Part shown: positions 1 through 46,445 of the stretch, in pieces
Numbering within the stretch: the first letter of the stretch is position 1
Layout: the number at the start of each line of letters is the position of its first letter
Source: Ianthella basta
Taxonomy: Eukaryota; Porifera; Demospongiae; Verongiida; Ianthellidae
Reading direction: 5' to 3'
NCBI GenBank assembly: GCA_964019415.1
Contig: OZ025877.1
Coordinates: 7,925,141-7,989,140, forward strand
DNA: 64,000 nucleotides
Program-made: the position numbers and the translations under genes
The notes under the pieces: model-generated
What the model was told of the DNA's origin: nothing
The model's input: only the letters and a program-made list of their open reading frames with translations
Databases searched by the model: none

Positions 1-8018
<8,018 letters not shown>

Positions 8019-11055: not shown

Positions 11056-13840
11056 CTATGTAGCTACTGCTGACCCTGCACCCAAACCAACCAGTGACAC
11101 AACATCACTACGCCCAGTCTTTACAATGTTCACCTTTTCATAGATCTTTCTCCTCTCCCATGATGCTGCTGCCTCCACCTTCCTCCGCTCCTTCTCGTGT
11201 CTGCTCTGCACCTCAGGCAATGTGAAGAAGGTCCTGCACAGTGATGTATGCAAGGGAAGAAATATGCTATTATGGTAATAACGTTTAATTGGAACATTAC
11301 AGGAAATGCTTCCCAGTAAATGTTGACGAAACTGGCTACACACCAACGTAAGCCATCCCCACCCCCCCACGCAGTGTGGACTCATACCGTCTGGCTTTGG
11401 CTTTCATTTCACTAAGTAGTTGTTTCCTCAACTTCTTCTTTGGGACAGGAACCCGGGACGGAGCAAGCACTCTTGTCTTCTCTGTTACTGTTGATGTGGG
11501 AGGGGCAGTTGGGTGGGGTACACTTCCCTCTTCTCTTCGTACTGGTCCACCTCTGTGTACATCACTGGAGATCTGGTCTAGCTCATCTCTCTGTCTCCTG
11601 GCAATTTGAAGAAACAGCTGCCTCTGCTGACAGTGTCTGATGAAGGCCTTCTTGTACGTTTGACAAGCTTCTTGGAGGGAAAGTGGTGCCAGCGTGGGTA
11701 TTTGAGGTCGTGCGAGATCTGCTGGTGAACTCTCAAAGGAAGATGCAGAAAGACTGTGATCTGCGGAATGCCGGCCCTTATTACCAAGGTACTGGTAAGG
11801 AGAGTGTGAAAGGGCGAGAGTGCTAGAGGATGACTCATGTCCGAGAGGAGAACTGTGAGAGACAGTGAATGAGACAGCTTTAGAATCAGGCTCAGTCCTC
11901 GTGGACGCTTCTGGCAGTTGTGTCCACCTGTTGGGTGTCTGTAAATTATTCTCCTGCTGTGGAACTCCATGTTGAAACAAGCGAGGACTGGTCTGCACTC
12001 CTCGATTCTTTGCCTTCTTCCTCACAGCTTCATGCCTTGGTGCTGCATGCTGAGCATTGGCCTTTGGAGGTGGTGCCTGACGAAGAGAAGGGCTGCTATC
12101 ATCTTTCTCAAGTGGGTGGGCTGGTCTAGTCTGCATTTTCAGTGCTCCAGTGCTCTTGGCCCCATACCCAGATGAATGAGTCGCAGGATGCTGCCTCTCA
12201 GCAGCTCGCTGACTCTCATGTGCACCACATGTGCACTTAATGCGGCACAACTCTGGCCGTAGTGCTGATTCACCCACATCAACATCCCTCAGCACCTGAA
12301 GAACACTCTCAGAGTCTTGCTGGTGAGGTCTCCTAATGTCCCCATCACCATCGCCCCTACTGGCACACTGCTGCAAGGCACGTGCAGTGGCATAGGGGCT
12401 CCTAAGGAGGGCCTCCCACAACTTGTCCAGGTGCGCCAGGTCCCGTCCTGGTAGAAACTGTGTGGGTTTGCCGCGAGCCTTTCGAACAGCCTCTGTCGCC
12501 AGTGTCTCGATTACCTCATTTGTGGATTCCTCACTGGTTGCCTCCTTGGAGAGGGTGAGGGTAGAGGTGGATGTATTAGTGGATAGGACTTCACCTGCTT
12601 CCATTGTAGCGGCCACCTCGTGTGTAGACTCACTGGTTTCCTCCTGGGAGGGGATGCTGGTGGATGTGTTTGTGGATGGGTCTCCTGTGGAGTGGAGTGT
12701 TTGGGTACCCACAGTGGAGTCCCTAGTTGAAGGAGGTGTGTGTGTGCTCACTGTTGTGTCTCTGTGTGATGGGAAGTTGTGGGTGATGGTAGACGAGTTG
12801 ATGCCAGTTTGTAGAGTGCTGCTAAGGCCGGACGTAGAGGTGCTATGCTCGCTTGCTGTCTCCTTTGGCAGAGAGAACTGCACAAACTGTGGGCCCTTTC
12901 TAAGGTCACTCAGTGATGGCAGCATAGGAATGGAATTGTGTAATCCATGCTGTCTGGGTCCAGTACCAGGGTGCCTCCCTGGAACAGACTGTGCAGTGAA
13001 AGGTTGAGGCGCTGACCGATGGTTCTTGGACAATACCCTTTCAGAGAAAGCAACCTGTTCTTCCTTTTCCCAGCTGACGCCACCATCGGTCTGCAGCGTC
13101 TGTCTCTGCTCCCTGCCACGATGATAGTGAGCACCACTCACCCCGACCTGCCTTTTATGCTGAAGCCACTGCCTGGAGCTGAGGTGTGAGGAGGTCACCT
13201 GATGTGTGGTTGGGACAAAGCCATGAAGCAGTGCTAAGTCAGGAGTGGAGTCTTCTGTCCTGTGGCTCTTGTCAGCTCCCAGTCCTGGGGTGGTGCTTCC
13301 TGTGATGTCTCCTACACTGAGGTCAGGGGGTGGATGATGGTGACCATCACTAAGCTCCTGAGATGAACCCACTGCTCCGAGGTCAGCCTTGCTGCTGAAG
13401 AGAGAAGTACCAGAACGTGAGGCGTCGGAAGACGGTGAGGGAGTGTTGCTTCTTTGGCTCCTCGATCTTTGATCTGAGGTGGCATTGGAGCTGCTGTCTG
13501 CTTCCTTTGCTGATACCGCCCTTGAGCTTGGTAGTGAAGAAAGCGAAGAGGAACTCTTATGTGGAGTGGAACTGCAGTCTCCCACAGACGGAGACATGTA
13601 GCTCTGTTTGGCCACATTAATCATCCTCTCTACACCGTCACGACCTGCAGCGTCTGTGCCACTGGCGGTGGGAGATATCTTGCTGACATTGACTGCAGCA
13701 AAGTGTTCCGTGAGATGGGACAAACTCCCGGAGAAGGCTCGACTGACCTCGCTCTCGTCAGCAAGGGGGAGAGGGTGCCACTCCATCGCCTCCACTTTCC
13801 ACGAAGAGAAACGTGACCTACAATGAAGTGTAGCTATCAT
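11056..13840 (-). CDS. ALMS-motif protein (ALMS1/CEP295-type), Ser/Thr-rich
   Basis: Two exons (13840-11388 and 11233-11056) joined by a 154-base intron give about 876 residues. Most of the protein is low-complexity, rich in Ser, Thr, Pro and His, with no recognised fold. The end carries the family signal: a basic helix (SLQEACQTYKKAFIRHCQQR), then KKLRKQLLSEMKAKARR, and after the splice TFFTLPEVQSRHEKERRKVE. This matches the C-terminal ALMS motif of ALMS1, CEP295 and C10orf90 (LPEVxxxxEExxR pattern). Those proteins sit at centrioles and the base of cilia, so a centrosomal role is inferred. The first Met is at 13838-13840; a second in-frame Met lies 18 codons on. The gene is divergent from the TSNAXIP1-like gene, 358 bases apart. 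The long disordered part is not conserved enough to choose an exact orthologue. Confidence 0.75.
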
Positions 13841-16649: not shown

Positions 16650-17131
16650 CTACTTATTTTTGACTGTGGTCGCCTTGGAGATGGTGGACTCAGTCTTCTG
16701 GTACTCCTGACTCACGACAACAGGCTGCTTATTGGGGCAGTTTCCCTTCCATTGCACAAGCTGCAATTGTGAGTCTTGTCAGTCTTCGTCTTAATGGGCC
16801 TTGGCTTCTGCAATTCCTCAGGAAGAACTTCAGCGCCACATTTATAGCAAGGACTTGTAACACCTTCAGATGTCCATCCAGTGAATTCATTGCCACAGCA
16901 GCACACATGCTTGCCAATCTTGGGCTCCAGGTCAGGAGGAATGGCATTACAGTGTGTCTTGCATCCCCAGCACTGCGAGACTGGCTTGTATTTGGGCACC
17001 GACTCCCACCACTTGCGATTGCACTTACCACAAGCAAAGTAGCGACATTCTTTTTCCTCGGTAGCCCTGTCATGCTGCATCAGCTTCTCCACAGTCAGTG
17101 AGGGCTTCTCAACATCTCCGCCTTCAGCCAT
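16650..17131 (-). CDS. SHFL-like gene A, C-terminally frameshifted
   Basis: First member of the SHFL/Shiftless-like array. It starts with MAEGG at 17131 and reads to a stop at 16712 (139 residues). The zf-3CxxC/SHFL-type zinc domain is clear: RYFACGKCNRKWWESVP, PVSQCWGC, KHVCCCGNEFTGWTS, SPCYKCGAEVLP, then HNCSLCNG. At about 16741-16752 the frame changes. Compared with paralogue B one G is missing, and the conserved continuation (GNCPNKQPVVV, then a Ser/Thr-rich tail to a stop at 16650) is open in the -1 frame. Read as is, the protein ends seven residues after the last Cys pair and loses its final Cys. This may be real truncation, a base error in the assembly, or recoding. Vertebrate SHFL binds RNA and ribosomes and stops -1 frameshifting; here function is inferred from fold only. 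Longer versions starting at 17209 are less likely. Confidence 0.85.
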
Positions 17132-17556
17132 TATCTGAGAAATGCTGAACTCAAAGTTAGAGACCTTTCTCTCTGCTCTTACGTATATTGAAAACAGTTT
17201 CTCCTGCACTTGAACGATTCTTGCTGCTTACCTCACTTGGTGAGATCCTCTCCTTTATACCAGTGAACATTACAATGACACGGCAGGTGGGCTGGGGGAA
17301 GTCCCTTACCATTCCCCTCCAATTTGCATACCTTCCTGCGGTAAGACAATGTGCTCTAATGCAGTATTCGTACAGTCTGTGAATGGGTGGGAGGGGTCAC
17401 ATGACCTTTAGGTAGGTCAGGACGTTCCAATGCATACTTCCTTGTTGCTATATAGGCTGCTGTGTACACATGTACATACATGTATGTGTGTATTATGATG
17501 TAGTTTGTATTATATATGTACTGTATTAAATCACATACATGTCTGTATATACATGC

Positions 17557-17587
17557 TGACTCACGGCGCAACGACCCCACTGAGTCA
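17557..17587. promoter_or_regulatory. Two AP-1 (TGASTCA) sites upstream of SHFL-like A
   Basis: TGACTCA at 17557-17563 and TGAGTCA at 17581-17587 lie upstream of gene A (and 3' of gene B). They match the bZIP/AP-1 consensus exactly. Use as regulatory sites is inferred from their recurrence in front of other members of the array. Confidence 0.4.
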
Positions 17588-17871
17588 TGGCACGGGGCAT
17601 GTGTTTGGACTATAGCACCATTCAAGCGAATAAGAGGTCAGAGGTCATTACTTCATCTGGATCATGTATATGGACTGACCGTTATGCAGTGTGCTTATTG
17701 AAGTAATCAGGTAACAGGCAACATGCCGACGCGCTCAGCATGTACAATTGTACTGGCTGAAACCATACATTGCAGCGTGCATTACTCAACATATGCCACA
17801 CAATTAATGAAAGATTGCATGCATCACTGCAAGTTCCTCACAGAAGTCACTAGCCAAGAATTTGATGTCAT

Positions 17872-17981
17872 AAAATGTTTCAACAGCTGACCGCTGCCTT
17901 ATTCAGTCATTGTGGCCTGCAGACACACACTCTGTAAGCTACATCCACCGGAGTAGGTAGCAGCCAGCTGCTGAAACATTA
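17872..17981. repeat. Foldback element 3' of SHFL-like B
   Basis: AATGTTTCAACAGCTG at the left and CAGCTGCTGAAACATT at the right form imperfect inverted arms of about 24 bases around a 60-base centre. A related right arm (CAGCCAGCTGTTGAAACG) is found at about 16458-16475 downstream of gene A, so the element or its flank was copied with the genes. Confidence 0.6.
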
Positions 17982-18129
17982 GATGAAATCAAATTCTTGG
18001 TTAGTAACCTCCATGAGGAATGCCCAGTGCTATATTCACGTTACAAGCAGCTCATAATGGTGATGTGCGTAAGTCTAAGAGGTTCAGTCTGCTTTTAACT
18101 TGTATGTATCTTCTGCCTCAGCCGTGCTG

Positions 18130-18738
18130 TTAGTCATCTTCCACAGAAAGAAGACGCAGATCATCATCCAGATCACGAAGTGCTCTGTTGTACTCTCTCC
18201 TTCGGCGCTCAGTCTCCTGGGGGTCCACTATGGTTGACCTGTCATCGTCCTCAGTGCAGACACTGGAGATGGTTGACCTGTCATCGTCCTCAGTGTAGAC
18301 ACTGGAGATGGTGGAACCAGTGCTCTCGTGCTCCGGGCTGGCGTTAACCACAGCCTTCTTGTTGGGGCACTTCCCCTTCCCGTCACACGCTTCACATTTG
18401 TGCCTCCTGTTGGTTGTCTTCTTTATGTCTCCGCGGTTAGGGAGGATCTTTGGCAGGACATCAGCCCCACACTTGAAGCAAGGACTGGTCACACCATAGG
18501 ACGTCCACCCGGTGAAACTGTGGCCACACTTGCACTTGTGTTCCCCCACTCCAAACTCCTTGTCACGAGCAAGAGCATCGTATTTCTTCCTGCACCTCCT
18601 GCAGCGAGAGACTGGCTTTTGCACCAGGACATCTTCCCACCACGACTTATCGCAGCTGCTGCAGGCAAACTGGCGGCGCTCCACTGCCTGCTCCCATGGG
18701 ATGATGTCATTTTCTACAGGAGCTCCACCTTCAGCCAT
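18130..18738 (-). CDS. SHFL-like gene B, full length
   Basis: Single-exon gene of 202 residues, the closest in plan to vertebrate SHFL (C19orf66, also called RyDEN). In order: short acidic N-terminus, RQFACSSCDKSWWEDV, PVSRCRRCRKKYDALARDKE, EHKCKCGHSFTGWTS, SPCFKCGADVLPKILP, HKCEACDGKGKCPNKK, and a Ser-rich stretch ESTGSTISS followed by a duplicated 14-15 residue acidic unit and a charged tail. The Cys pattern, WW pair, RCRKCRKxY, and the HxxSGST-like tail all occur in SHFL. The vertebrate protein is interferon-induced and inhibits programmed -1 frameshifting and several RNA viruses; it also carries nuclear localisation and export signals. An antiviral role here is inferred. The gene is divergent from gene C, 552 bases apart. 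Confidence 0.9.
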   Translation of the reverse strand: MAEGGAPVENDIIPWEQAVERRQFACSSCDKSWWEDVLVQKPVSRCRRCRKKYDALARDKEFGVGEHKCKCGHSFTGWTSYGVTSPCFKCGADVLPKILPNRGDIKKTTNRRHKCEACDGKGKCPNKKAVVNASPEHESTGSTISSVYTEDDDRSTISSVCTEDDDRSTIVDPQETERRRREYNRALRDLDDDLRLLSVEDD

Positions 18739-19044
18739 TCTCTTGATTCTGACTAATCGAAAGTTTATTCACAGCTCCAGGAAGGTTGGCATACCAGTTT
18801 AGAGGCTCAAGTTAGCCTTGCTACCCTTTCTGCGGTCTTTTATAGGCATATCAACCCCAATGACACAGCACTTTGGAAATTTTTAACCCTAACATGTATG
18901 GGTGGGGAGGGGAGAGGACAAGGGGATTTACCTTAAGATTTCCCAATAATTGGTAAGTCCCCTTTGGCCCACTTGTTGCAGCTGCAGGTGTATGTATATG
19001 TATGTGTATACACACACAAGGTGTGAAGTGACAGGTGCGGGAAG

Positions 19045-19092
19045 TGAGTCATAGCAACTGGATTTCCTGCTGAAACAATAAACCATGAGTCA
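19045..19092. promoter_or_regulatory. Two AP-1 sites between SHFL-like B and C
   Basis: TGAGTCA occurs at 19045-19051 and 19086-19092, in the space between the divergent genes B and C. They could serve either promoter. Confidence 0.4.
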
Positions 19093-19290
19093 TTCACATG
19101 ACCTTAAGTGTATTCATAGCTTCCACTAACCGTGTGGTTTCTAAAGAATCCATCCTTACTCATGTTCTGGGAACATTGTGTGCTTTCAGACTAATCGCCA
19201 GTAGCTAATATATTGTGAAGGTTATGAAAGTCTTCTTTACTGGATGAACGTTTCCTAATATCTTGGTCCGTGGTGATTGGTTCCCAGAGA

Positions 19291-20145
19291 ATGCCGTATC
19301 TCAAGTTCGAATGTTGTGGTAAGAAATGGAAGAAGAACATCTCCCCGAATAAAGACCCTGTGACCACTTGCAGGAATTGTAGCTCAGATGTAGTTGCCAA
19401 TTCCTATGAAGAGCTACAATTCTACTGTGAACAGTGTGACTCTGAGTGGTATGAATATCTGTTGGAAGATTCAGATGAGTATCCTGTGTCTCAGTGTGAG
19501 TACTGTGCATTGGAAGTTGTTGCTGAGTCGTATGAGTACCTGGAGTTTGTCTGCAAGGGATGCAGGAGTGAGTGGGATGCGTACTGGCATGAGGAAGATG
19601 ACCCTGTCGATGAATGTGCAGACTGTCATAGAGAGGTGGTCGCAACAGCCTACGAACATCTCGATTTCAACTGTGAACCCTGTGACATAAAGTGGAGTGA
19701 GTACTGGCCTACTTCTGACGATGAAGACAGGATGTCTGAATGCGAGGGCTGTGATAAACTGCGAGTGGCCAACACCTACGTGTTCAGGCAGTTTGCATGT
19801 GGGACCTGCCAAAAGATGTGGTGGAAGACTGTGCCTCAGCACAACCACTTGTGTTACTGCATTGGAAGGTGTCGTCAGTGGCTGAAGCCCATCCCACGGC
19901 GCAAGGAGTATGGGATTGGTGAGCACATTTGTGAATGTGGCAATGAGTTCCATGGCAGGACCCAGGCCTCCGTGAAGAGCCCGTGCTTTCGGTGTGGTGA
20001 GAGTTGCCTCCCAAGCATCATTCCCGGCAAGTTAGTGCTGCGGAGGAAGAGCAGACACACCCACAAGTGTGAATCATGCAACGGACAGGGTGACTGCATC
20101 CACTTCCAACGTATTATCTACACCAGTGAAGCGGTGTCAAGGTAG
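19291..20145 (+). CDS. SHFL-like gene C with four extra zinc half-modules
   Basis: Single exon, 284 residues from the first in-frame ATG. Residues about 6-160 hold four tandem copies of a module of about 40 residues, each of the form FxCxxCxxxW, 10-14 residues, PVxxCxxC, then VVAxxYEx. The first copy has its opening pair collapsed to CC. From about residue 163 a full SHFL-type domain follows: RQFACGTCQKMWWKTVP, a diverged YCIGRCRQWL second pair, EHICECGNEFHGRTQ, SPCFRCGESCLP, HKCESCNGQGDCIHFQRIIYTSE. Each N-terminal module resembles the first half of the SHFL domain, so the protein grew by internal duplication. The half-modules are unusually acidic compared with the basic core. I know of no described protein with this arrangement. 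Confidence 0.88.
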   Translation: MPYLKFECCGKKWKKNISPNKDPVTTCRNCSSDVVANSYEELQFYCEQCDSEWYEYLLEDSDEYPVSQCEYCALEVVAESYEYLEFVCKGCRSEWDAYWHEEDDPVDECADCHREVVATAYEHLDFNCEPCDIKWSEYWPTSDDEDRMSECEGCDKLRVANTYVFRQFACGTCQKMWWKTVPQHNHLCYCIGRCRQWLKPIPRRKEYGIGEHICECGNEFHGRTQASVKSPCFRCGESCLPSIIPGKLVLRRKSRHTHKCESCNGQGDCIHFQRIIYTSEAVSR

Positions 20146-20428
20146 ACAGATTGAGAGCAGAGTGGAGATGAAGCTACAAAGAGTATCTCATAGATGGACA
20201 GTGTGTGTGTGTTGTATGGGTGAATCAGTTGTGTACATGTGTCATGTGACACTTACGTACATGTTTGTGTATATTGTGTGGTGAATGGTATGCTGTTGTG
20301 CTTGTGCTATTCACTTGAATAATGAACTACCTCTGCTAATGATATTCATAGCATTGCTTCATGAGAATCTGCCATCAGTCATGGTAGTTTGACTCTTCTG
20401 ATTGGTTGCTGGTCATGTGACTTCATGT

Positions 20429-20488
20429 GAAAGGGAAAGAAGGCGGTGCTTTCCCGTTAACTTTCCCTCCCGCTATTTTGCTGAGTCA
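20429..20488 (+). promoter_or_regulatory. IRF/ISRE-like box and AP-1 site upstream of SHFL-like D
   Basis: GAAAGGGAAA (20429-20438) fits the GAAANNGAAA core bound by interferon regulatory factors, and TGAGTCA (20482-20488) fits AP-1. Both are kept in the copy upstream of gene G. The surrounding 200 bases are also duplicated there, so conservation partly reflects recent duplication. Confidence 0.45.
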
Positions 20489-20686
20489 TGTAGTTAGTGT
20501 GGCGTGACTAAGCGGTGACGCACAGTTGGTATACACGTCAGTGCACCAGACGGCTACCTGCGGGCATCAGTCCTGTAAAGAGAGCTTTGTTGAAGAGTCT
20601 GCACGTCCCATTGTGTTGCAGCACATCACCTACACTCACACTCGTTTATTGCTAGAAGTCGTACATCTTCGGGGCTATCTTTTACG

Positions 20687-20807
20687 GTAAGCGGCAGTGT
20701 GTGAACTACAGTAACTGGTTGTGTGGTCTGAGATATGGACCTCTGGGAATCTTAAACCTTTGATACTTGAACTTCCACCTGAGCATGGAGCAATCTACTT
20801 TTTGCAG
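20687..20807 (+). other. Probable 5' UTR intron of SHFL-like D
   Basis: ACG|GTAAGC at 20687 and TTTTTGCAG ending at 20807 make a good 121-base intron just ahead of the coding start at 20858. The same signals flank the corresponding stretch in front of gene G (about 23971-24093). The coding region itself has no intron. Confidence 0.55.
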
Positions 20808-20857
20808 GGACTTGTGACACTCTGGTGTTCAGAGTTGAGGACTCTGTTCGGAGTGCT

Positions 20858-21409
20858 ATGGGCAGAAGAGGTAGAAGAGGAACTAGAGGAACAAGACAGT
20901 TCGCATGTGGTCGCTGCAACAGGAAGTGGTGGACATCTGTCCCTGTCAGAAACCCTGTTTGCGGATGCTTCACTTGTGGCAACATCTTGATGGCGATCCC
21001 GCGAAGCAAGGAGTATGGAGTGGGCTTTCATAAGTGTGTGTGTGGCCACGCCTTTTACGGCAGAACATCAGCTGGTGTGCGCAGCCGATGTTATAATTGC
21101 CGAGTGGTATGGTGCTATCCAAGGATGATTCCTAATAAGGCAGGAGTGAACAGGGAATCCGACAGTGTCCATGAGTGTGGTAAGTGTCGTGGTAAACGTA
21201 ACTGCATCCACTTCAAACGCATCATCCACACCAGTGAAGTGGTGGGATATGTCTCAGATGATGAGGATGATGAGGATGACTATGAAACAGATGAAGATGC
21301 TGAAGACTATGATGAAGATGGTTACTATGATGATGATTACTACGGCGAGTATGATTCTGAGGGTCATTATCAGGATGAGGACGATCTTCTTGACTACTGG
21401 CATGACTAA
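20858..21409 (+). CDS. SHFL-like gene D with acidic tail
   Basis: 183 residues starting at ATG 20858. A very basic N-terminus (MGRRGRRGTRGTR) leads straight into RQFACGRCNRKWWTSVP, GCFTCGNILMAIPRSKEYG, HKCVCGHAFYGRTS, SRCYNCRVVWCYPRMIP, HECGKCRGKRNCIHFKRIIHTSE. After that comes a tail of about 60 residues made almost wholly of Asp, Glu and Tyr, rich in DDDYYGEYDSEG-like steps. Vertebrate SHFL also ends in an acidic stretch. The pairing of a basic RNA-binding-like head and acidic tail fits binding to RNA or ribosomes, but this is inference. It is paired with gene C in a block that is repeated as F-G. The reading frame is open further upstream from a GTG, but ATG 20858 is the first Met. Confidence 0.88.
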   Translation: MGRRGRRGTRGTRQFACGRCNRKWWTSVPVRNPVCGCFTCGNILMAIPRSKEYGVGFHKCVCGHAFYGRTSAGVRSRCYNCRVVWCYPRMIPNKAGVNRESDSVHECGKCRGKRNCIHFKRIIHTSEVVGYVSDDEDDEDDYETDEDAEDYDEDGYYDDDYYGEYDSEGHYQDEDDLLDYWHD

Positions 21410-21570
21410 TAGACTGTATCGACACTATGTGTGTATGTGTGTGCTTGTTGGTCGTGTTTACCACTGACCACCTGTAGTTACATAAACGGCATTAATCCAC
21501 TTGTAATTAATGTACAGTGTGTATTCCATTACTCACTTGTCCTTGTTTGGCACACTATTTTGGGTGCCAG

Positions 21571-21650
21571 ATTATGAATATTGTTATGATCATGAATGTT
21601 GTTACTGGATGGAATTTCATCTTTAAGTGGATTCATAGTTCATAGAAGGC
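21571..21650 (+). promoter_or_regulatory. Shared upstream element of SHFL-like E, H and I
   Basis: A block starting ATTATGAATATTGTTATGAT and continuing through CATGAATG to TTCATAG is found 120-200 bases upstream of E (21571 on), H (25079 on) and I (26758 on), and nowhere else that I see in the window. It includes TGATCA/ATGAT inverted steps. It is a candidate common promoter element, or simply duplicated flank. Confidence 0.45.
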
Positions 21651-21768
21651 TGTATTCATGGAAACCTTGGCACACAAACTGTAGTTGTGTTCTCCTCTTC
21701 TCCTTTACCGTTTTCTGATCTGTTGTTGCGTTGAATTGGGAAGTCCTGGAAGTTGTAGTCTGTGTGGA

Positions 21769-22311
21769 ATGGCTGAGTCGCTGCCTCTGAGTATTGAGAA
21801 CTTGCGTATCCACAATGAACGTACAGAAGAGGTGGAGTTGAGGCAGTTTGGGTGCCAGCGCTGCTACAGGTCCTGGTGGAAGAAAGTGCGTACATTAAAG
21901 CCTGTCTCCAAGTGCAAGATCTGTGGGACCAAATACAATCCGCTTCCTAGGGATAAGGAATATGGGATAGCAGAGTTTGTGTGTCCACAATGTGGGAACA
22001 CCTTTAGGGGGCGTGGGCAGGTGACAACCACCAGCCCTTGCTACAGATGCCAGACTGAGTGCCACGTGAGCCGTATTATCCCAGGCCAAAGCGGCATAAG
22101 ACGGAAGACGGATCAGAAACATTACTGCAGTGAATGCCACGGCCAAGGTAGATGTCCAACTTTCAGTCCCGTCATTCACTTCAGTGATCCTCATGACAGT
22201 ACTGGAAGCACGGCTAGCTCTATCACAGAAAGTGAATATGAAGTGCGACTGCCCCTTGATGCTCTCAGCACTGAAGCCAGTATAGCGGAAGAGTCTGAAG
22301 ATGACCATTAA
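21769..22311 (+). CDS. SHFL-like gene E, full length
   Basis: Single exon, 180 residues from ATG 21769. Order: MAESLPLSIENLRIHNE leader, LRQFGCQRCYRSWWKKV, PVSKCKICGTKYNPLPRDKE, AEFVCPQCGNTFRGRG, SPCYRCQTECHVSRIIP, HYCSECHGQGRCPTF, then VIHFSDPHDSTGSTASSITE and an acidic end. In two places this member is closer to vertebrate SHFL than C or D: AEFxCPxC in the middle and HxSxxHxSxGST near the end. It founds the E/H/I subgroup. An upstream-extended frame from a GTG at 21685 would add a hydrophobic leader but has no ATG. Confidence 0.9.
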   Translation: MAESLPLSIENLRIHNERTEEVELRQFGCQRCYRSWWKKVRTLKPVSKCKICGTKYNPLPRDKEYGIAEFVCPQCGNTFRGRGQVTTTSPCYRCQTECHVSRIIPGQSGIRRKTDQKHYCSECHGQGRCPTFSPVIHFSDPHDSTGSTASSITESEYEVRLPLDALSTEASIAEESEDDH

Positions 22312-22548
22312 CATATTTGACTCTTTTTAACTGCAGTAAGACGTGGCATTATATTCTCAGCATTGTTCATCACCGATATGCATGTGCATGCATTATTTTA
22401 CATGGCTTTGTAGTCATGCGATCATCATGTGATCACCATGTGATCAGCTCATTGGTCAGCTGACTATGTACCTCTTGCTAACTCAACAGGCATGCAGTTC
22501 ACGATTGCTTGCATCACAGTTTCCGATCCACTGTGAAGCAGTGATAGA

Positions 22549-23007
22549 GTGTGGAGCAAGCACGATGCTACAGCTTTGAGCAATGAAGCCACTGCATCCG
22601 AATGTGATGTCTGTGGTGCACCACTCGTGGCCAATGCCTACAAGTTTAGGCAGTTTGCGTGTGAGACCTGCCTAAAGATGTGGTGGAGGACTGTGCCTCA
22701 GCACAACCACTTGTGTTTCTGCATCGGAAGGTGTCGTCAGTGGCTGAAGCCCCTCCCACAGCGCAAGGAGTATGGGATTGGTGAGCACATTTGTAAATGT
22801 GGCAATACGTTCCATGGCAGGACCCAGGCCACCATGAAGAGCCCGTGCTTTCGGTGTGGTGAGAGTTGCCTCCCGTACATCATTCCTGACAAGCTGGTGC
22901 TGCGGAGGAAGAGCAGATACACCCACAATTGCGAATTATGCAATGGACGGGGTGACTGCATCCACTTCAAACGTATTATCCACACCAGTGAAGTGGTGTT
23001 AAGGTAG
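22549..23007 (+). CDS. SHFL-like gene F, C-type copy without a clear start
   Basis: Open frame of 152 codons nearly identical to the second half of gene C: ECDVCGAPLVANAYKFRQ, ETCLKMWWRTVP, EHICKCGNTFHGRTQ, SPCFRCGESCLP, NCELCNGRGDCIHFKRII. There is no in-frame ATG before the first Cys pair; the frame opens with GTG after a TGA at 22534. Just upstream CACTGTGAAGCAGTGATAG still resembles the last half-module of C, with its reading frame broken. The 3' flank (22990-23170) matches that of C almost base for base. So F is a C copy whose N-terminal half-modules have decayed. It may be a pseudogene, or be translated from an upstream spliced or non-AUG start. Confidence 0.7.
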   Translation: MWSKHDATALSNEATASECDVCGAPLVANAYKFRQFACETCLKMWWRTVPQHNHLCFCIGRCRQWLKPLPQRKEYGIGEHICKCGNTFHGRTQATMKSPCFRCGESCLPYIIPDKLVLRRKSRYTHNCELCNGRGDCIHFKRIIHTSEVVLR

Positions 23008-23714
23008 ACAGATTGAGAGCAGAGTGGAGATGAAGCTACAAAGAGTATCTCATAGGTGGACTGTGTGTGTGTGTTGTATGGGTGAATCAGTTGTGTACAT
23101 GTGTCATGTGACACTTACGTACATGTTTGTGTATATTGTGCGGTGAATGGTATGCTGTTGTGCTTGTGCTATTCATTTGAATAGCAAAACTACTTCGGCT
23201 ATGATATTCATACGCATGTGGGTTATGTCCTATGTGAACAATGGGGCTTCCGCGCAGGTGAAAAATTTGTCCCCGTATTTTCTCTTATTTCATAGTCTCC
23301 TCCAAACCACATTTGTGGAACTCGTGTTTGGTATCATCATAACCACCTATTACCACCCATAACCACACTACAATTGTATGATTAAAACTTGGGGATAGTC
23401 GGTCTCCTATAAGATCAATGTTGCTGTCAATTAACCCAGTAAAGACGTGGAACCATTTTCTTCGCAATTGCTTCAGACAGAAACGACGAATTAAACATTT
23501 CTGAACAATTCAGGCTTTCAGATCACATGAATGTCATGTGCAGTCATATGCATAGCCACGGTAACACAGAAGAATGTGATAAAACCACACGGTTCACTCT
23601 ATGTAAACAATGCCTTGGCAGCAACGAGCATAACCCACATGCCTTCGGGAGAATCTGGCATCAGTCATGGTAGTTTGACTCTTCTGATATGTTGCTGGTC
23701 ATGTGACTTCATGT

Positions 23715-23774
23715 GAAAGGGAAAGAAGGCGGTGTTTTCCCGTTAACTTTCCCTCCCGCTAGTTTGCTGAGTCA
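23715..23774 (+). promoter_or_regulatory. IRF/ISRE-like box and AP-1 site upstream of SHFL-like G
   Basis: GAAAGGGAAA at 23715-23724 and TGAGTCA at 23768-23774, in the same order and spacing as upstream of gene D. Confidence 0.45.
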
Positions 23775-24143
23775 TGTAGTTAGTGTAGCGTGACTAAGTG
23801 GTGACGCACAGTTGGTATACACGTCAGTGCACCAGGTGGCTACCTGCGGACATCAGTCCTGTAAAGAGAGCTTTGTGGAAGAGTCTGCACGTCCCATTGT
23901 GTTGCAGCACATCACCTACACTCACACTCGTTTATTGCTAGAAGTCATACATCTTCGGGGCTATCTTTAACGGTAAGCGGCAGTGTGTGAACTACAGTAA
24001 CTGGTTGTGTGGTCTGAGATATGGACCTCTGGGAATCTTAAACCTTTGATACTTGAACTTCCACCTGAACATGGAGCAATCTACTTATTGCAGGGACTTG
24101 TGACACCCTGGTGTTCGGAGTTGAGGACTCTGTTCGGAGTGCT

Positions 24144-24873
24144 ATGGACAGAGGAGGTAGAAGAGCTAGAAGAACAAGACAGTTCGCATGTGGTCACTGC
24201 AACAGGAAGTGGTGGACATCTGTCCTTGTCAGAAACTTTGTTTGCAGATGCTTCACTTGTGACAACATCTTGATGGCAATCCCACGAAGCAAGGAGTATG
24301 GAGTGGGCTTTCACAAGTGTACTTGTGGCCATGTCTTTTACGGCAGAACATCAGCTGGTGTGGCCAGCCGATGTTATAATTGCCGAGTGGTATGGTGCTA
24401 TCCAAGGATGATTCCTAATAAGGTAGGAGTGAACAGGGAATCTGACAGTGTCCATGAGTGTGCTTACATGTGGTGGGAGAGGTGACTGCATCCACTTCAA
24501 AAACATCATCTACACCAGCGATGTGGTTGGACATGCATCAGATGAGGAGGAGGAGGAGGAATCAGATGAGGAGGAAGAGTATGAATCAGATGAGGAGGAG
24601 GAGGAGGAGGAGGAAGAGGAGGAAGATGAGGAAGAGGATGAATCAGATGAGGAGGAAGAGTATGAATCAGATGATGATGATGAGGAGGAGGAGGAGGATG
24701 AATCAGATGAGGAGGAAGAGTATGAATCAGATGAGGAGGAGGAGGAGGAGGAGTATGAATCTGATCAAGGTGATGATGACCATGATGAATATGGTTACTA
24801 TGGTGAAGATTACTACGGCGAGTATGATTCTGAGGATTATTATCAAGATGAAGAAGATCCTGTCGATTACTGA
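24144..24873 (+). CDS. SHFL-like gene G, D-type copy with frameshift and long acidic tail
   Basis: From ATG 24144 the frame encodes a D-like head and core (RQFACGHCNRKWWTSV, HKCTCGHVFYGRTS, SRCYNCRVVWCYP) and stops at 24483-24485. Against gene D there is one extra T at about 24459-24465. Past that point the other frame continues with the last Cys motif (CGGRGDCIHFKNIIYTSD) and about 115 residues of Glu, Asp, Ser and Tyr, ending at 24873. The tail is roughly twice that of D because an ESDEEEEYE unit has been repeated. Without the shift the product loses the last zinc pair and the whole tail. The long acidic frame is free of stops, which argues for recent change, assembly error or +1 recoding rather than old decay. 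Confidence 0.75.
24541..24770 (+). repeat. GAG/GAT-rich coding repeat
   Basis: Tandem GATGAGGAGGAAGAGTATG-like units inside the tail of gene G. They expand the acidic stretch and keep the triplet frame. Confidence 0.8.
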
Positions 24874-24898
24874 CAGATTATACATTGTACTTGTACAT

Positions 24899-24900
<2 letters not shown>

Positions 24901-24960
<60 letters not shown>
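24901..24960. repeat. (GT)n microsatellite 3' of SHFL-like G
   Basis: Sixty bases of GT just after the stop of gene G. Confidence 0.95.
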
Positions 24961-24962
<2 letters not shown>

Positions 24963-25290
24963 TTTCCTTGGTGGTCATGTTTATACCTACCACTGACCAC
25001 CTGTGGGCACATAAGTGTCATTATTTAATCTATCCATTACTTGCTTGTCCTTATTTGGTGTGCTATTTTTGGTGTCAGATTATGAATATTGTTATGATCA
25101 TGAATGTTGTTAATTGGAAAGGAATTTCATCTTTAACTGGATTCATAGTTCCTAGAGGCTGTATAATAGGTTCAAGGAAAAGACTTGGCATACGAACAGC
25201 AAATCACTGTTGAGTTCTCTTCTCCTTTGCCTTATTCTGGGCTGTGGTTGCATTGAATTGGGAAGTCCTGGAAGGTGTAGTCTGTGTGGA

Positions 25291-25843
25291 ATGGCTGAGT
25301 CACTGCCTCTGAGTATTGAGAACTTGCGTATCCATGATGAACTTACGGAAGAGGTGGAGTTCAGGCAGTTTGCTTGTGAGCCTTGCTACAGGTCCTGGTG
25401 GAAGAGAGTGCGTGCAAAGAAACCAGTCTCCCATTGCAGGAACTGTAAGACCAAGTATGACACTCTTCCTAGGGATCAGGAGTTTGGGGTTGCAGAGTTT
25501 GTGTGTCCAAAGTGTGGACACACCTTTACAGGGCGTGGCAAGGTGACTACAACCTGCAGGTGTTATGATTGCCAGACCCGGTGCAAGGTGAGTCGTATTG
25601 TCCCAGGCCAAAGAGGCATAACACGGAAAACTGAGCTGAGGCATAGTTGTGATGAATGCACTGAAGACGGCTGTCCCAACTTCAAGCCTGTCATCTACTT
25701 TAGCAGGCTTCATGACAGCACTGGAAGTACGACAAGCTCTGTGACAGAAAGAGAATTTGAGGTGAAACTACCCCCTAAAAGCTCTCAATACTAAACCCAG
25801 CATACAAGAAGAAGATGAGGACAGCACTGAAGACAGTGATTGA
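25291..25843 (+). CDS. SHFL-like gene H, E-type copy with frameshifted tail
   Basis: Begins with the same leader as E (MAESLPLSIENLRIHDE). Core: FRQFACEPCYRSWWKRV, PVSHCRNCKTKYDTLPRDQE, AEFVCPKCGHTFTGRG, CRCYDCQTRCKVSRIVP, HSCDECTEDGCPNFK, VIYFSRLHDSTGSTTSS. The frame stops at 25792-25794. One extra A in an AAAA run (about 25778-25781) separates it from the E/I-type tail, which is still open in the next frame (NTKPSIQEEDEDSTEDSD) to a stop at 25841-25843. Only the acidic last 20 residues are affected, so the zinc domain should be intact. Compared with E one residue is missing between the last Cys pairs. Confidence 0.82.
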
Positions 25844-26154
25844 AAATTTGGCACTGTTGTGTTCACTGCGTCTCATTTGACTGTGCATCACATGCATTCA
25901 ATTGCATACTGTAGTCTTACATGACTGTAATCATGAACATGTGACCGTCATGTGATCTGATCATCTCAGTTGATTGACCATCCCTTGTACATCATATAGA
26001 CATGTACGTACTGTAATTCTTTACATTGCTCAGTAGTCATGTGACTGTCATGTAATCAGTTCAATCTCATCAGTTGACCCTTTATCATATTATGCATGTA
26101 TAATTTATGCTTTTGTCCAATGAGCATTGGTATCCCCAGGGCAAATCAAACATG

Positions 26155-26488
26155 GGATCTTCACAGTGACCTAATGGAAGTCATTGCCACACACACAGAC
26201 GTGTTCCCAGTCCCATACTCATTGTGTGGTGGGATGGCACCTCAGCACCTGAACACGCCTCCCACTGCAATAACACAAGTGATTGTGCTAAAGCACAGTC
26301 TTCCACCACATCTTTTGGCAGGTCTTACACGCAAACTGCCTGAACTTGTAGGAGTTGGCCTCTAGTGGTTCACAACAGACATCACATTCAGACACATGGT
26401 CTTCATTGCTCAAAGTGAGCTAATACTCTCTCCACGCTTTATCACAGGCTTCACAATGGAATGTGAGAAGTCGGTAGGCCGTTGTGAC
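26155..26488 (-). pseudogene. SHFL-like pseudogene J (C/F type), inverted
   Basis: On the minus strand this stretch still reads, in pieces, TAYRLLTFHCEACDKAWREY, CDVCCEPLEANSYKFRQFAC, KTCQKMWWKTVL and HNHLCYC, which match a half-module and the core of genes C and F. Stop codons (after AWREY and in place of the P codon after KTV) and frame breaks are present, and the rest fades out near 26155. It is the third C-type copy and is inverted relative to its neighbours. A foldback element sits at its 5' end. Confidence 0.75.
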
Positions 26489-26604
26489 CTAGTCTCGCAT
26501 GGCCAGACTGCTGTTTTGCTCAAACTCTGCCCTACCAAACATCTTTGACGTCTTTTGAGAGGGCAGAATCTGAGCAAAATGGTGGTCTGGCTACATGAGA
26601 CTAG
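26489..26604. mobile_element. MITE-like foldback element
   Basis: A 116-base element with inverted ends of about 45 bases (CTAGTCTC... and ...GAGACTAG; inner part TTTGCTCA / TGAGCAAA) around a short centre. It is non-coding and lies at the 5' edge of pseudogene J. A CTAG at each tip may be part of the element or a target duplication. Confidence 0.7.
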
Positions 26605-26975
26605 TTCAGGTGGCTGTCTTACAGGTTTCACTGTATTAATCACTTGTACTCACTATAAATGCCTTGGCGTCATATTACGTGCTTCAAGCATATTCATACT
26701 CACTTGAGCAGAGGGAGCACCATACCTTATTTGGCATGCCATTATAAGATCAGGTGATTTATGAATATTGTTATGATCATGAATGATGTTACTTGTAATG
26801 CCGGTTCATCCTTAACTAGATTCATACTTCATAAAAGTGACTGTGTGTATTCGAGGAACCGACCTGACCCGTTGTTGTTTCTTGCGTTTCCCCTTTCTCC
26901 CTGTGCCATAGCTGGGCTATTGTTGAACTGATTAGGAAGGTCAGTGGTTAGGTTAGTTTCCAGGGCAACCAGGTA

Positions 26976-28421
26976 ATGGCAGAAAAACCAAGTCAGAGCT
27001 CTGATAAAGTGTCCAAAGATGATGATGTTGAGGAGAAGGTGGAATTCAGGCAGTTTGCCTGTGACTCCTGCCACAGGTCCTGGTGGAAGAGAGTGCGTGC
27101 AAAGAAGCCAGTCTCCCAATGCAGGAACTGTAAGACCAAGTATGACGCACTTCCTAGGGACAAGGAGTTTGGGGTTGCAGAGTTTGTGTGTCCAAAGTGT
27201 GGGCACACCTTTACAGGGCGTGGCCAGGTGACCACCACAAGCATATGTTATAAGTGCAAGACACAGTGCGAGGTGAACCGCATTGTCCCGGAGCAAGGTG
27301 GCGTAAGACGGAAGAAGCGTCGGAAGCACAGTCGCAATGAAGACAGAGGACAGGGCGTTTCTCCCAGCTTAGGCTCAGTTGTCCACAGTGATGAGGTTCC
27401 TGATAGTACAGCTAGCTCGATCATGGGATCTGAATACGAAATGAGGTTACCCATCGATATTTCTGGTACTGATGACAGCTCTGAGGAAGAAGAAGAAGAA
27501 GAAATTAAAGAGGCACTAGCTACTTCAACAACGGCTAAGAAAGTACCTCTGACCATGGAGAATCTGAGCATTCATGATGATCTGGTGGGAGAGGGGCGGT
27601 TATATGACGAGGAGCTGGAGGTGGAGGTGGAGTTCAGGCAGTTTGGGTGTCGGCGCTGTTACAGATCGTGGTGGAAGAGGGTGCGCGTGAGGAAGCCTGT
27701 CTCCAAGTGCAAGTCCTGTCGGATCAAATACGACGCACTACCTAAGGATAAGGAGTATGGGGTTGCAGAGTTTTTGTGTCCGAATTGTAGGCACACCTTC
27801 TTAGGGCGTGGCCGGGTGACAACCACCAGCCCTTGTAACAAGTGTGACGCACAGTGCGAGGTCATCGGTATTGTCATAGACACAAAGGATGCAAGGCGAC
27901 GAAGCAAGATTGCGGAGTTTGTGTGTTCGACGTGCGGAAAGACCTTTAGAGGACGTGGACGGGTAAGAACAACCAGCACATGTTATCGGTGCAATACGGT
28001 GTGTGAAATGATCAGCGGCGTCGTAGGCCAAGGTGGAGAAGGACTTGGACTGAGCCAAAGCAGCACAGGGCAGAGTGAAGTCGGACAGTTTGCGTGTCCA
28101 ACATGCGGGCACACCTTTGCAGCGCGTGGCGAGGTGACAACCGTAGGCTTGTGCCATCAATGCAACACAGAGTGTGGGATGAGCCGTAGTGTCGCAGCGC
28201 GAGATAAGCATTACTGCAATGACTGTCTGGGCGTTGGCCGCTGTCCCAACTTCAAGCCCGTCATCCACTTTAGTAAGCGTCACAACAGCACCGGAAGCAC
28301 AGCTAGCTCTCTCACTAAAAGGGAATTTGAAGTGAGACTGCCCCTTAAAGCTCTCAGCACTGAACCCAGCATACAGGAAGAAGATTCCGGAGATGACAAT
28401 GACATGTTTGGCACTCCTTGA
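26976..28421 (+). CDS. SHFL-like gene I, fused multi-domain protein
   Basis: One uninterrupted frame of 481 residues. Domain 1 (about 25-115) has RQFACDSCHRSWWKRV, CRNCKTKYDALPRDKE, AEFVCPKCGHTFTGRG and SICYKCKTQC, but its last Cys pair is gone (replaced by SRNEDRGQG). An acidic linker EEEEEEEI follows. Domain 2 (about 220-310) repeats the core: RQFGCRRCYRSWWKRV, CKSCRIKYDALPKDKE, AEFLCPNCRHTFLGRG. Then come two extra central modules (AEFVCSTCGKTFRGRG and GQFACPTCGHTFAARG). A normal end follows (HYCNDCLGVGRCPNF, NSTGSTASS, acidic tail). The order shows fusion of E/H-type genes plus internal duplication of the central Cys module. Only the last unit keeps the terminal Cys motif, so the protein ends as a single SHFL tail with several zinc cores before it. 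Confidence 0.9.
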   Translation: MAEKPSQSSDKVSKDDDVEEKVEFRQFACDSCHRSWWKRVRAKKPVSQCRNCKTKYDALPRDKEFGVAEFVCPKCGHTFTGRGQVTTTSICYKCKTQCEVNRIVPEQGGVRRKKRRKHSRNEDRGQGVSPSLGSVVHSDEVPDSTASSIMGSEYEMRLPIDISGTDDSSEEEEEEEIKEALATSTTAKKVPLTMENLSIHDDLVGEGRLYDEELEVEVEFRQFGCRRCYRSWWKRVRVRKPVSKCKSCRIKYDALPKDKEYGVAEFLCPNCRHTFLGRGRVTTTSPCNKCDAQCEVIGIVIDTKDARRRSKIAEFVCSTCGKTFRGRGRVRTTSTCYRCNTVCEMISGVVGQGGEGLGLSQSSTGQSEVGQFACPTCGHTFAARGEVTTVGLCHQCNTECGMSRSVAARDKHYCNDCLGVGRCPNFKPVIHFSKRHNSTGSTASSLTKREFEVRLPLKALSTEPSIQEEDSGDDNDMFGTP

Positions 28422-45305: not shown

Positions 45306-46298
45306 TTATTGGATGGGAGTGAAATCCACTTTGATGTACACCTCCCCCTGCTGCCGTGTTTTGTGCTTGCGGTGAGTCACCGGGTACCAGCTCGCTAGAC
45401 CCTCCTCGCTCCCCATCAGGGAGGAGAGGTTGATCTCACACACACCCATGTGATCGTCCTTTGTAAAGCTGTCCTTGTCGAACACCTCAAGGAAGAGGCA
45501 GGCTGAACCGTCCCATGAGAATTGGAAGTTCTCGTTGTATTTTGGGTTGAGGGTTCGCTTCTTCACAGTACTCTTGTGCTTCTGCATGCCCACTTTGAGG
45601 ATAAAGTACGGGTCGCTCTTGACGATATCCTTCTCGACCAGGCCTCGCGCCTCCACCAGCTGGACACTGACAATTCCCTTGAACTCCACCATGGCTACGT
45701 GCTGCTTGTAGTCCTCACGCTCGATGCTGCTGCCGCTGCTGCTCCTGCTGCGTGACGAAGGCGGAGAGGAGGGAGGCGACGGCGATGAGAGGTCGCGCTT
45801 GGGAGGGCGGGCCGCACCGCTCACTCCTTCCTTGTACCTGAATAGCTCATCCACGTATTTGGCGGTGATGAACTGCTCACGGTCGCTACGGGGGGTCCTG
45901 CCGCCTTGGGGTGCCTCAAACACCTTGGGAACGCAGTATTCCCATTCCTTGTTGATATTGGTGTTCCCGCCCTTCAGCATCAAGGAGTTCACTTGTTCGT
46001 GTGTCCAGTCGTCCAGAGTGAGGCTGAGGACGAACGACTTGTCCACGCCCAGTGACCGGTGCACTCCTGCGCACTGTGTGCAGATGATCACACCGAGATT
46101 CACACTAGCCCAGCCAGGGTTGGGTTCAGCGCAGTCGGCGCACACTTGATTCCCATCGGTGCTCAGGAACTCGTCCAGGAGGGCACGGGGAGTGGGGAGC
46201 TTTGAGAGTATGGGCTCGCTCGCCGACTTCTTGGCGGCCATTGCTAGCCTCTTCGGCTTCAGTAACTCTTGTCTAAGCTCTTGGATAACCTGGTTCAT
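45306..46298 (-). CDS. ArfGAP-C2 protein, intronless
   Basis: 330 residues in one exon, unlike the intron-rich neighbours. Residues about 30-150 are an ArfGAP domain: zinc finger CADC...CTQC with 16 residues between pairs, followed by GVHRSLGV with the catalytic arginine. This domain speeds GTP hydrolysis on Arf GTPases in membrane traffic. A Ser/Pro linker follows. Residues about 203-325 are a C2 domain (VEARGLVEKDIVKSDPYFIL, LNPKYNENFQF, EVFDKDSFTKDDHMG), with the Asp residues expected for calcium-dependent lipid binding. Joined ArfGAP and C2 is best known from plant AGD11-13/ZAC proteins; common animal ArfGAPs (ARFGAP, SMAP, ADAP) lack this order. It starts 148 bases from SEM1, divergently. 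Confidence 0.92.
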   Translation of the reverse strand: MNQVIQELRQELLKPKRLAMAAKKSASEPILSKLPTPRALLDEFLSTDGNQVCADCAEPNPGWASVNLGVIICTQCAGVHRSLGVDKSFVLSLTLDDWTHEQVNSLMLKGGNTNINKEWEYCVPKVFEAPQGGRTPRSDREQFITAKYVDELFRYKEGVSGAARPPKRDLSSPSPPSSPPSSRSRSSSGSSIEREDYKQHVAMVEFKGIVSVQLVEARGLVEKDIVKSDPYFILKVGMQKHKSTVKKRTLNPKYNENFQFSWDGSACLFLEVFDKDSFTKDDHMGVCEINLSSLMGSEEGLASWYPVTHRKHKTRQQGEVYIKVDFTPIQ

Positions 46299-46445
46299 AG
46301 TCTATTGCAAGTTTATAGCAGAACAGAATGCAGCTAAGCATTCTGCCCTTTGTCTTTTATAATTTCGCTCCGACGATGAGAAGCCACACACGTGATCCCG
46401 CCCCAATTCTTTTAATGAGATTCATTGGTTTGGATACGCGTAAAG
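46299..46445. promoter_or_regulatory. Bidirectional promoter of ArfGAP-C2 and SEM1
   Basis: Only 147 bases separate the two divergent start codons, so both promoters share this stretch. It has CCCGCCCC near 46398 (GC box-like) and a TTTATAATTTC near 46355. No other motif is clear. Confidence 0.5.

Follow-up and report, generated by a model that had tools for sequence, protein, structure and literature searches.

A tandem array of SHFL-type zinc-core genes in the sponge Ianthella basta

A 64,000-nucleotide stretch of the genome of the demosponge Ianthella basta (contig OZ025877.1, positions 7,925,141 to 7,989,140 of assembly GCA_964019415.1; the window, from here on) contains a tandem array of genes related to human SHFL, an antiviral protein that prevents viral shifts of the ribosomal reading frame. 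Nine open reading frames (ORFs), g1 to g9, that carry the SHFL zinc core, and one pseudogene, are spread over positions 16712-28421. The assignment to the SHFL family and the array itself are solid. On balance, we think that the locus is probably an old, core-only tandem array that has split into separate subfamilies, with copies gained by duplication and lost by decay, and whose products would bind ribosomes on structured RNA and block recoding or end translation. An earlier note on this DNA had interpreted the locus as a SHFL-like immune gene family; our analysis supports that interpretation in part, an antiviral role of the array being plausible.

The family assignment is carried by sequence profiles and by fold. 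All nine ORFs match the Pfam family of human SHFL (PF15135, UPF0515) with 52 to 218.5 bits, over the curated cut-off of 29.8 bits, which confirms the zinc core that the earlier note had described as common to the array. All 35 members of alignment A2, seven of which are window ORFs, match PF15135 at E <= 0.01, and seven cysteine columns of this alignment are invariant. The zinc ligands are complete by reading in g2, g3, g4, g5 and g8; g6 lacks the first pair, and g1 and g7 lack the last half-site. For g2, g5 and alignment A1 (a 12-sequence profile), which were the three queries searched, the best solved relative by sequence is human SHFL (PDB 9kbo; E 3.7e-24 for g2), and the predicted model of g5 has the zinc-core fold of the human protein. 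The human region 164-199, on which the binding of RNA and ribosomes and the activity of the protein depend (PMC9324250), aligns with residues 81-114 of g5 and has a counterpart in g1, g2, g3, g4, g8 and the first core of g9 (alignment A1). The note had also asked whether the genes might lie closer to ZAR1 or to RTP proteins. None of the nine ORFs matches the zf-3CxxC family (PF13695) at E <= 1, which speaks against the ZAR1 side; RTP proteins are not listed in the fold searches, and are not thereby excluded.

No canonical SHFL was found elsewhere in the 96-contig, 209-Mb genome among 24 candidates scored, in a search that ignored introns and could miss a gene of small exons. The only other UPF0515 matches in the genome are two on contig C9, both under the cut-off; this pair was rejected as SHFL because the Zn_ribbon_3CxxC_2 family matches it better. 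No relative was confirmed in searches of viral contigs (two patterns, 21 stretches) or of genome contigs for a prokaryotic SHFL (one pattern, 10 stretches); in both cases this is weak evidence of absence.

The S-T-G-S-T tail, which the note had taken to be common to the copies, is found in four of the nine ORFs (g2, g5, g8 and g9) and is absent from g1, g3, g4, g6 and g7. In human SHFL, casein kinase 1 (CK1) phosphorylates T250 and T253; both are needed for frameshift inhibition and T250 also for polysome association, and glutamate at the sites retains activity (available text of PMC12724340). These two threonines map onto the STGST-A-S-S tail, by a numbering made by eye that agrees with the structure title. 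Across the family, the STGST pattern occurs in 39 of 56 proteins, a set that leaves out P0001, P0010, P0021, P0033 and P0034 (window or own-species copies), the fragment P0022, and g6. The 17 proteins without it include g1, g3, g4 and g7 (core part only) from the window; P0025, a relative of g3; and the g4-type P0023, P0024, P0026, P0027 and P0029, the last of which is g4-type by reading and is in neither of the trees described below. The others are P0035, with the variant STGDTASS, and P0032, P0039, P0045, P0050, P0052 and P0053.

The cores that were measured are basic, with net charges of +5 to +21. The acidic parts include the N-terminal modules of g3 (-26), the tail of g4 (-29) and the tail piece of g7 (-80); other appendages are the tails of g2 (-11), g5 (-10) and g9 (-5) and the linker of g9 (-11). 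Thus, among the stretches measured, the strongest acidic parts belong to the subfamilies without the phosphosite, and acidic residues may there stand in for phosphorylation.

The array begins with two genes on the minus strand. The g1 ORF (16712..17131, 139 aa; UPF0515 78.6 bits) has the SHFL core without its last part and without a tail, and the tail homology lies in frame -3, the core in frame -1. It is followed by g2 (18130..18738, 202 aa; 109.2 bits), which is complete, carries the core and then the STGST tail, and defines subfamily A. The genes g3 to g9 are all on the plus strand. In g3 (19291..20145, 284 aa, subfamily B; 79.2 bits), four acidic N-terminal zinc-ribbon modules precede a basic SHFL core (module starts at 6, 44, 86, 126 and 168), an assignment that draws on a predicted structure as well. 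A basic core with a strongly acidic tail makes up g4 (20858..21409, 183 aa, complete, subfamily C; 52 bits), and g5 (21769..22311, 180 aa, complete, subfamily D; 114.2 bits) again has the core and then the STGST tail. Next come g6 (22678..23007), a duplicate of g3 truncated at the 5' end, whose in-frame homology extends up to 22543, yet without an ATG before the first CxxC pair or ribbon, and g7 (24144..24873), a duplicate of g4 in which a frame change near 24461-24466 separates a core ORF (24144-24485) from an acidic tail ORF (24454-24873). The g5 duplicate g8 (25291..25794; 116 bits) keeps the STGST motif and has lost its final residues through a frame change near 25772, the tail homology being in frame 2 and the core in frame 1. 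Between g8 and g9 a g3-type pseudogene with several internal stops lies on the minus strand (26141..26497). Finally, g9 (26976..28421, 481 aa; 218.5 bits) contains two SHFL cores, two further ribbons of the second type and an STGST tail, six ribbons in total; the last zinc half-site is missing from the first of these cores but present at the C-terminal end. The nine ORFs and the pseudogene of the earlier note are all there, but to count nine coding copies, as it did, is too many: five of the nine ORFs look complete (g2, g3, g4, g5 and g9). The claim that the genes are single-exon holds for the coding regions; g4 and g7 have putative 5'-leader introns on the plus strand at 20687..20807 (read as GTAAGC...TGCAG) and 23973..24093 (with the same splice-like sites, in a duplicated block that is 93% identical), so that the two leaders probably carry a common 121-bp intron.

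Part of the array is a tandemly duplicated block. The stretch 19735..22292 (end of g3, g4 and g5) is collinear with 22597..25812 (g6, g7 and g8), both on the plus strand, with identities of 90.7% for g3/g6, 93.1% for g4/g7 with their 5' flank, and 73.4% for the following piece with g5/g8. The 5' flank of g4/g7 differs at 3.8% of positions (19/501), less than the coding part. The note had called the genes rapidly diverging, which applies, at most, to the youngest pairs. The ratio of nonsynonymous to synonymous change (dN/dS), obtained by a simple counting method, is 0.71 for g3/g6 (0.27-2.55) and 0.60 for g4/g7 (0.27-1.60), and both intervals include 1; these pairs show relaxed or fast change, without proof of positive selection. 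The older pairs have ratios of 0.29 (g5/g8), 0.25 (g5 and the first core of g9), 0.47 (g8 and the first core of g9), 0.27 (the two g9 cores), 0.20 (g1/g2) and 0.22 (g3/g4), and have therefore been under long-term purifying selection; silent sites are saturated between g2 and g5. The frame breaks of g1, g7 and g8 fall at or beyond the end of the core. Programmed frameshifting was considered for them and rejected, since the breaks differ in direction and place; inspection by eye showed no slippery heptamer in the correct phase, and plain indels are the simpler reading. Both g1 and g8 recur in the same shape in the protein collection, on a contig of 455,195 bases that may derive from the same data. 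The g2 product differs from its copy on that contig by one residue when compared by eye.

Relatives of the array genes were collected in three protein searches, which returned 7, 33 and 22 overlapping proteins with window copies included, the last scoring just the 7,994 candidates with the most words in common. P0025 is 66% identical to g3 and has the same layout, and g9 has full-length relatives in P0035 (62%), P0036 (58%) and P0037 (56%). Near relatives of g2 are P0013, P0015 and P0016, and relatives of g4 are P0023, P0024, P0026 and P0027. In a 58-row domain tree, which has few columns, long branches and an uncertain root, the sponge-type rows, 38 in number, come together in a single group with support 88/83, under the mark for firm support; within it, g1, g2, g3 and g4 group together (98/94), as do g5, g8 and g9 (93/88). 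In a 35-row tree, to which the same long-branch warning applies, the g5 group takes in the long rows P0028 and P0030, and the vertebrate-like P0031 sits beside the g2 group; the two trees disagree on these three proteins, and the outer placement is thus unsettled. Pairings found in both trees are g3 with P0025, g4 with P0023-P0027, the second core of g9 with P0002 and, only loosely in the 35-row tree, g2 with P0013-P0016. The contigs on which the relatives lie suggest that a SHFL-type cluster occurs in other genomes too: P0015, P0027 and P0035 are each on a contig of 171,144 bases, P0012, P0019 and P0029 each on one of 686,702 bases, P0016 and P0023 on one of 9,933 bases, and P0004 and P0036 on one of 9,939 bases. 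These sponge-type relatives presumably come from sponges. The UPF0515 proteins P0038-P0054 share the core, and 12 of the 17 have an STGST-type tail by pattern, including all seven that were read, most of which have longer Ser/Asp-rich C-terminal tails than the sponge type; in the 58-row tree none of the 17 belongs to the sponge-type group. In the open-licence PMC literature we found no earlier description of SHFL in sponges or invertebrates (UPF0515 papers being judged by title and start of abstract, and a broader search by the rows listed), and a published SHFL tree, in the available part of its source, reaches no further out than frog (PMC10433982). In trout, shfl has been placed within a virus-resistance quantitative trait locus region (PMC11162110).

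By analogy with human SHFL, the basic zinc-ribbon core of the intact copies would most likely bind both structured RNA and ribosomes engaged in translation. A CK1-phosphorylated STGST tail would set polysome association in g2, g5, g8 and g9, as in the human protein, and g3 and g4 would use strongly acidic modules or an acidic tail instead. The targets would be ribosomes stalled or shifting on structured RNA of viruses, retroelements or stressed host mRNA, with recoding blocked or translation ended early as the outcome, and the genes might be induced by infection.

Several observations weigh against this picture. Human SHFL has an N-terminal helical domain (aa 1-103 in the available text of PMC11055011) and a C-terminal helix, whereas significant matches to the sponge ORFs start at human residue 84 at the earliest (the best ORF stretches at profile position 65 or later), so that the N-terminal domain is absent from every copy and ribosome contact could therefore differ. 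Four of the nine ORFs (g1, g6, g7 and g8) are damaged. In addition, the GAAANNGAAA site occurs upstream of g4 and g7 only, which amounts to one duplicated sequence. The same human study reports that infectivity can be inhibited in the absence of binding to ribosomes and RNA, and that antiviral activity is separable from the inhibition of Gag-Pol expression (PMC11055011).

The main rival is that core-only SHFL proteins are general regulators of translation or mRNA, in ribosome-stress surveillance or ZAR1-like germline RNA control, and that they acquired their immune role in vertebrates, along with the N-terminal domain and interferon induction. We regard this as a possibility to be taken seriously, though an unlikely one: the array shows tandem turnover with damaged copies, which is unusual in housekeeping genes, and it retains two features of the antiviral human protein, the STGST tail (in four ORFs) and the 164-199 region. 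Possible but likewise unlikely is an elaboration of the antiviral reading, an interferon-independent SHFL system in which g2, g5, g8 and g9 would be switched on by CK1, g3 and g4 would be permanently 'on' through their acidic modules, and the repeated ribbons of g3 and g9 would allow action on a broader set of RNA or ribosome targets. It is improbable that the array instead restrains endogenous retroelements by suppressing the gag-pol recoding of long terminal repeat elements, and not exogenous viruses, although birth-and-death gene families often follow genome parasites and gag-pol frameshifting is a target of human SHFL, with stop-codon readthrough as a possible second one (PMC11055011). A mostly decaying array of retrocopies or duplicates of little function is very improbable, for the one pseudogene and four damaged ORFs in ten copies, and the single coding exons against eight exons in human SHFL (PMC10750386, available part), are countered by the five complete ORFs, by the relatives of the g2, g3, g4, g5 and g9 types in other genomes and by purifying selection on the older pairs.

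The signalling parts of an inducible antiviral programme exist in this genome, as there are matches to IRF (two), STAT (one weak single exon, E 1.5e-4) and the RIG-I C-terminal domain (three). The last three lie within 13 kb (C14:5215366-5227961) and are possibly a tandem cluster of RIG-I-like receptors. Nothing convincing in the way of interferon-type promoter sites was seen. The divergent genes g2 and g3 share the intergenic stretch 18739..19290, which may be a bidirectional promoter and contains two TGAGTCA sites and one TTCNNNGAA site. Between 16600 and 28600 there are eight TGASTCA sites, where the rest of the window would predict 2.1; they are not independent, because several were duplicated along or lie between g2 and g3. 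As the note had said, the array stands beside intron-rich genes: tankyrase and D-2-hydroxyglutarate dehydrogenase match in separate exons, and the tankyrase exon at 7523-7657 is identical to the best solved tankyrase at 27 of 43 residues. The window also contains an 834-aa open frame (11336-13840, minus) with no Pfam match at E <= 0.1 and a single 331-aa open frame with ArfGAP and C2 domains (45306-46301, minus). The mitochondrial DNA (contig C96, 21,233 bases) has a COX1 with nine TGA codons read through, an atp9 ORF identified by reading (L017:4877-5113) and 25 predicted tRNAs after removal of overlapping duplicates. The combination of mitochondrial atp9, TGA as tryptophan and a full set of tRNAs is a pattern of sponges, chiefly of demosponges. 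A vertebrate origin of the DNA was rejected on this mitochondrial evidence, with which the tankyrase exon agrees.

Work on SHFL treats it as a mammalian interferon-stimulated gene. A multi-gene array in a sponge would trace the SHFL core and its kinase switch back to the root of the animals, earlier than interferon, and hints that the family, and perhaps its role in defence, is older than interferon. If the two-branch system is true, recoding control would be an ancestral layer of antiviral defence common to all animals, and vertebrates would have cut it back to one gene. The natural variants of the array (core only, multi-ribbon, acidic tail, with or without the phosphosite) may also serve to tell apart the protein parts required to bind RNA, to bind ribosomes and to inhibit frameshifting.

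Among zinc-ribbon systems, the RNA-binding domain of ZAR1 (PDB 9jko) belongs with zf-3CxxC, to which the array ORFs have no match; the sponge has its own zf-3CxxC genes elsewhere in the genome. Two single-ORF zf-3CxxC genes, C10:8029156-8029464 (L012) and C10:8187522-8187845 (L011), share their contig with the SHFL array. The ZCCHC24 / Zn_ribbon_3CxxC_2 array of contig C9 likewise consists of several close copies with a sub-threshold UPF0515 match, but differs in that the three exons read have PF17180 as their best Pfam match; their ZCCHC24 C-terminal match is weak and below its cut-off. At 1.92-1.995 Mb of C9 (L009, L010, L013-L016), two sub-threshold UPF0515 and five zf-3CxxC matches fall in seven places; the exons read, both UPF0515 ones and L010:4510-4848, all have Zn_ribbon_3CxxC_2 as best match. 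Human SHFL (C19orf66, Shiftless, RyDEN, IRAV) shares with the sponge genes the zinc-core fold, the WW pair, the paired CxxC ribbons and region 164-199, and its STGST tail with CK1 sites has a counterpart in four of the nine ORFs. In contrast to the one human gene of eight exons (PMC10750386, available part), the sponge has ten copies with single coding exons, and its array, unlike human SHFL, has genes with repeats of the zinc module (g3, g9) or with an acidic tail (g4, g7).

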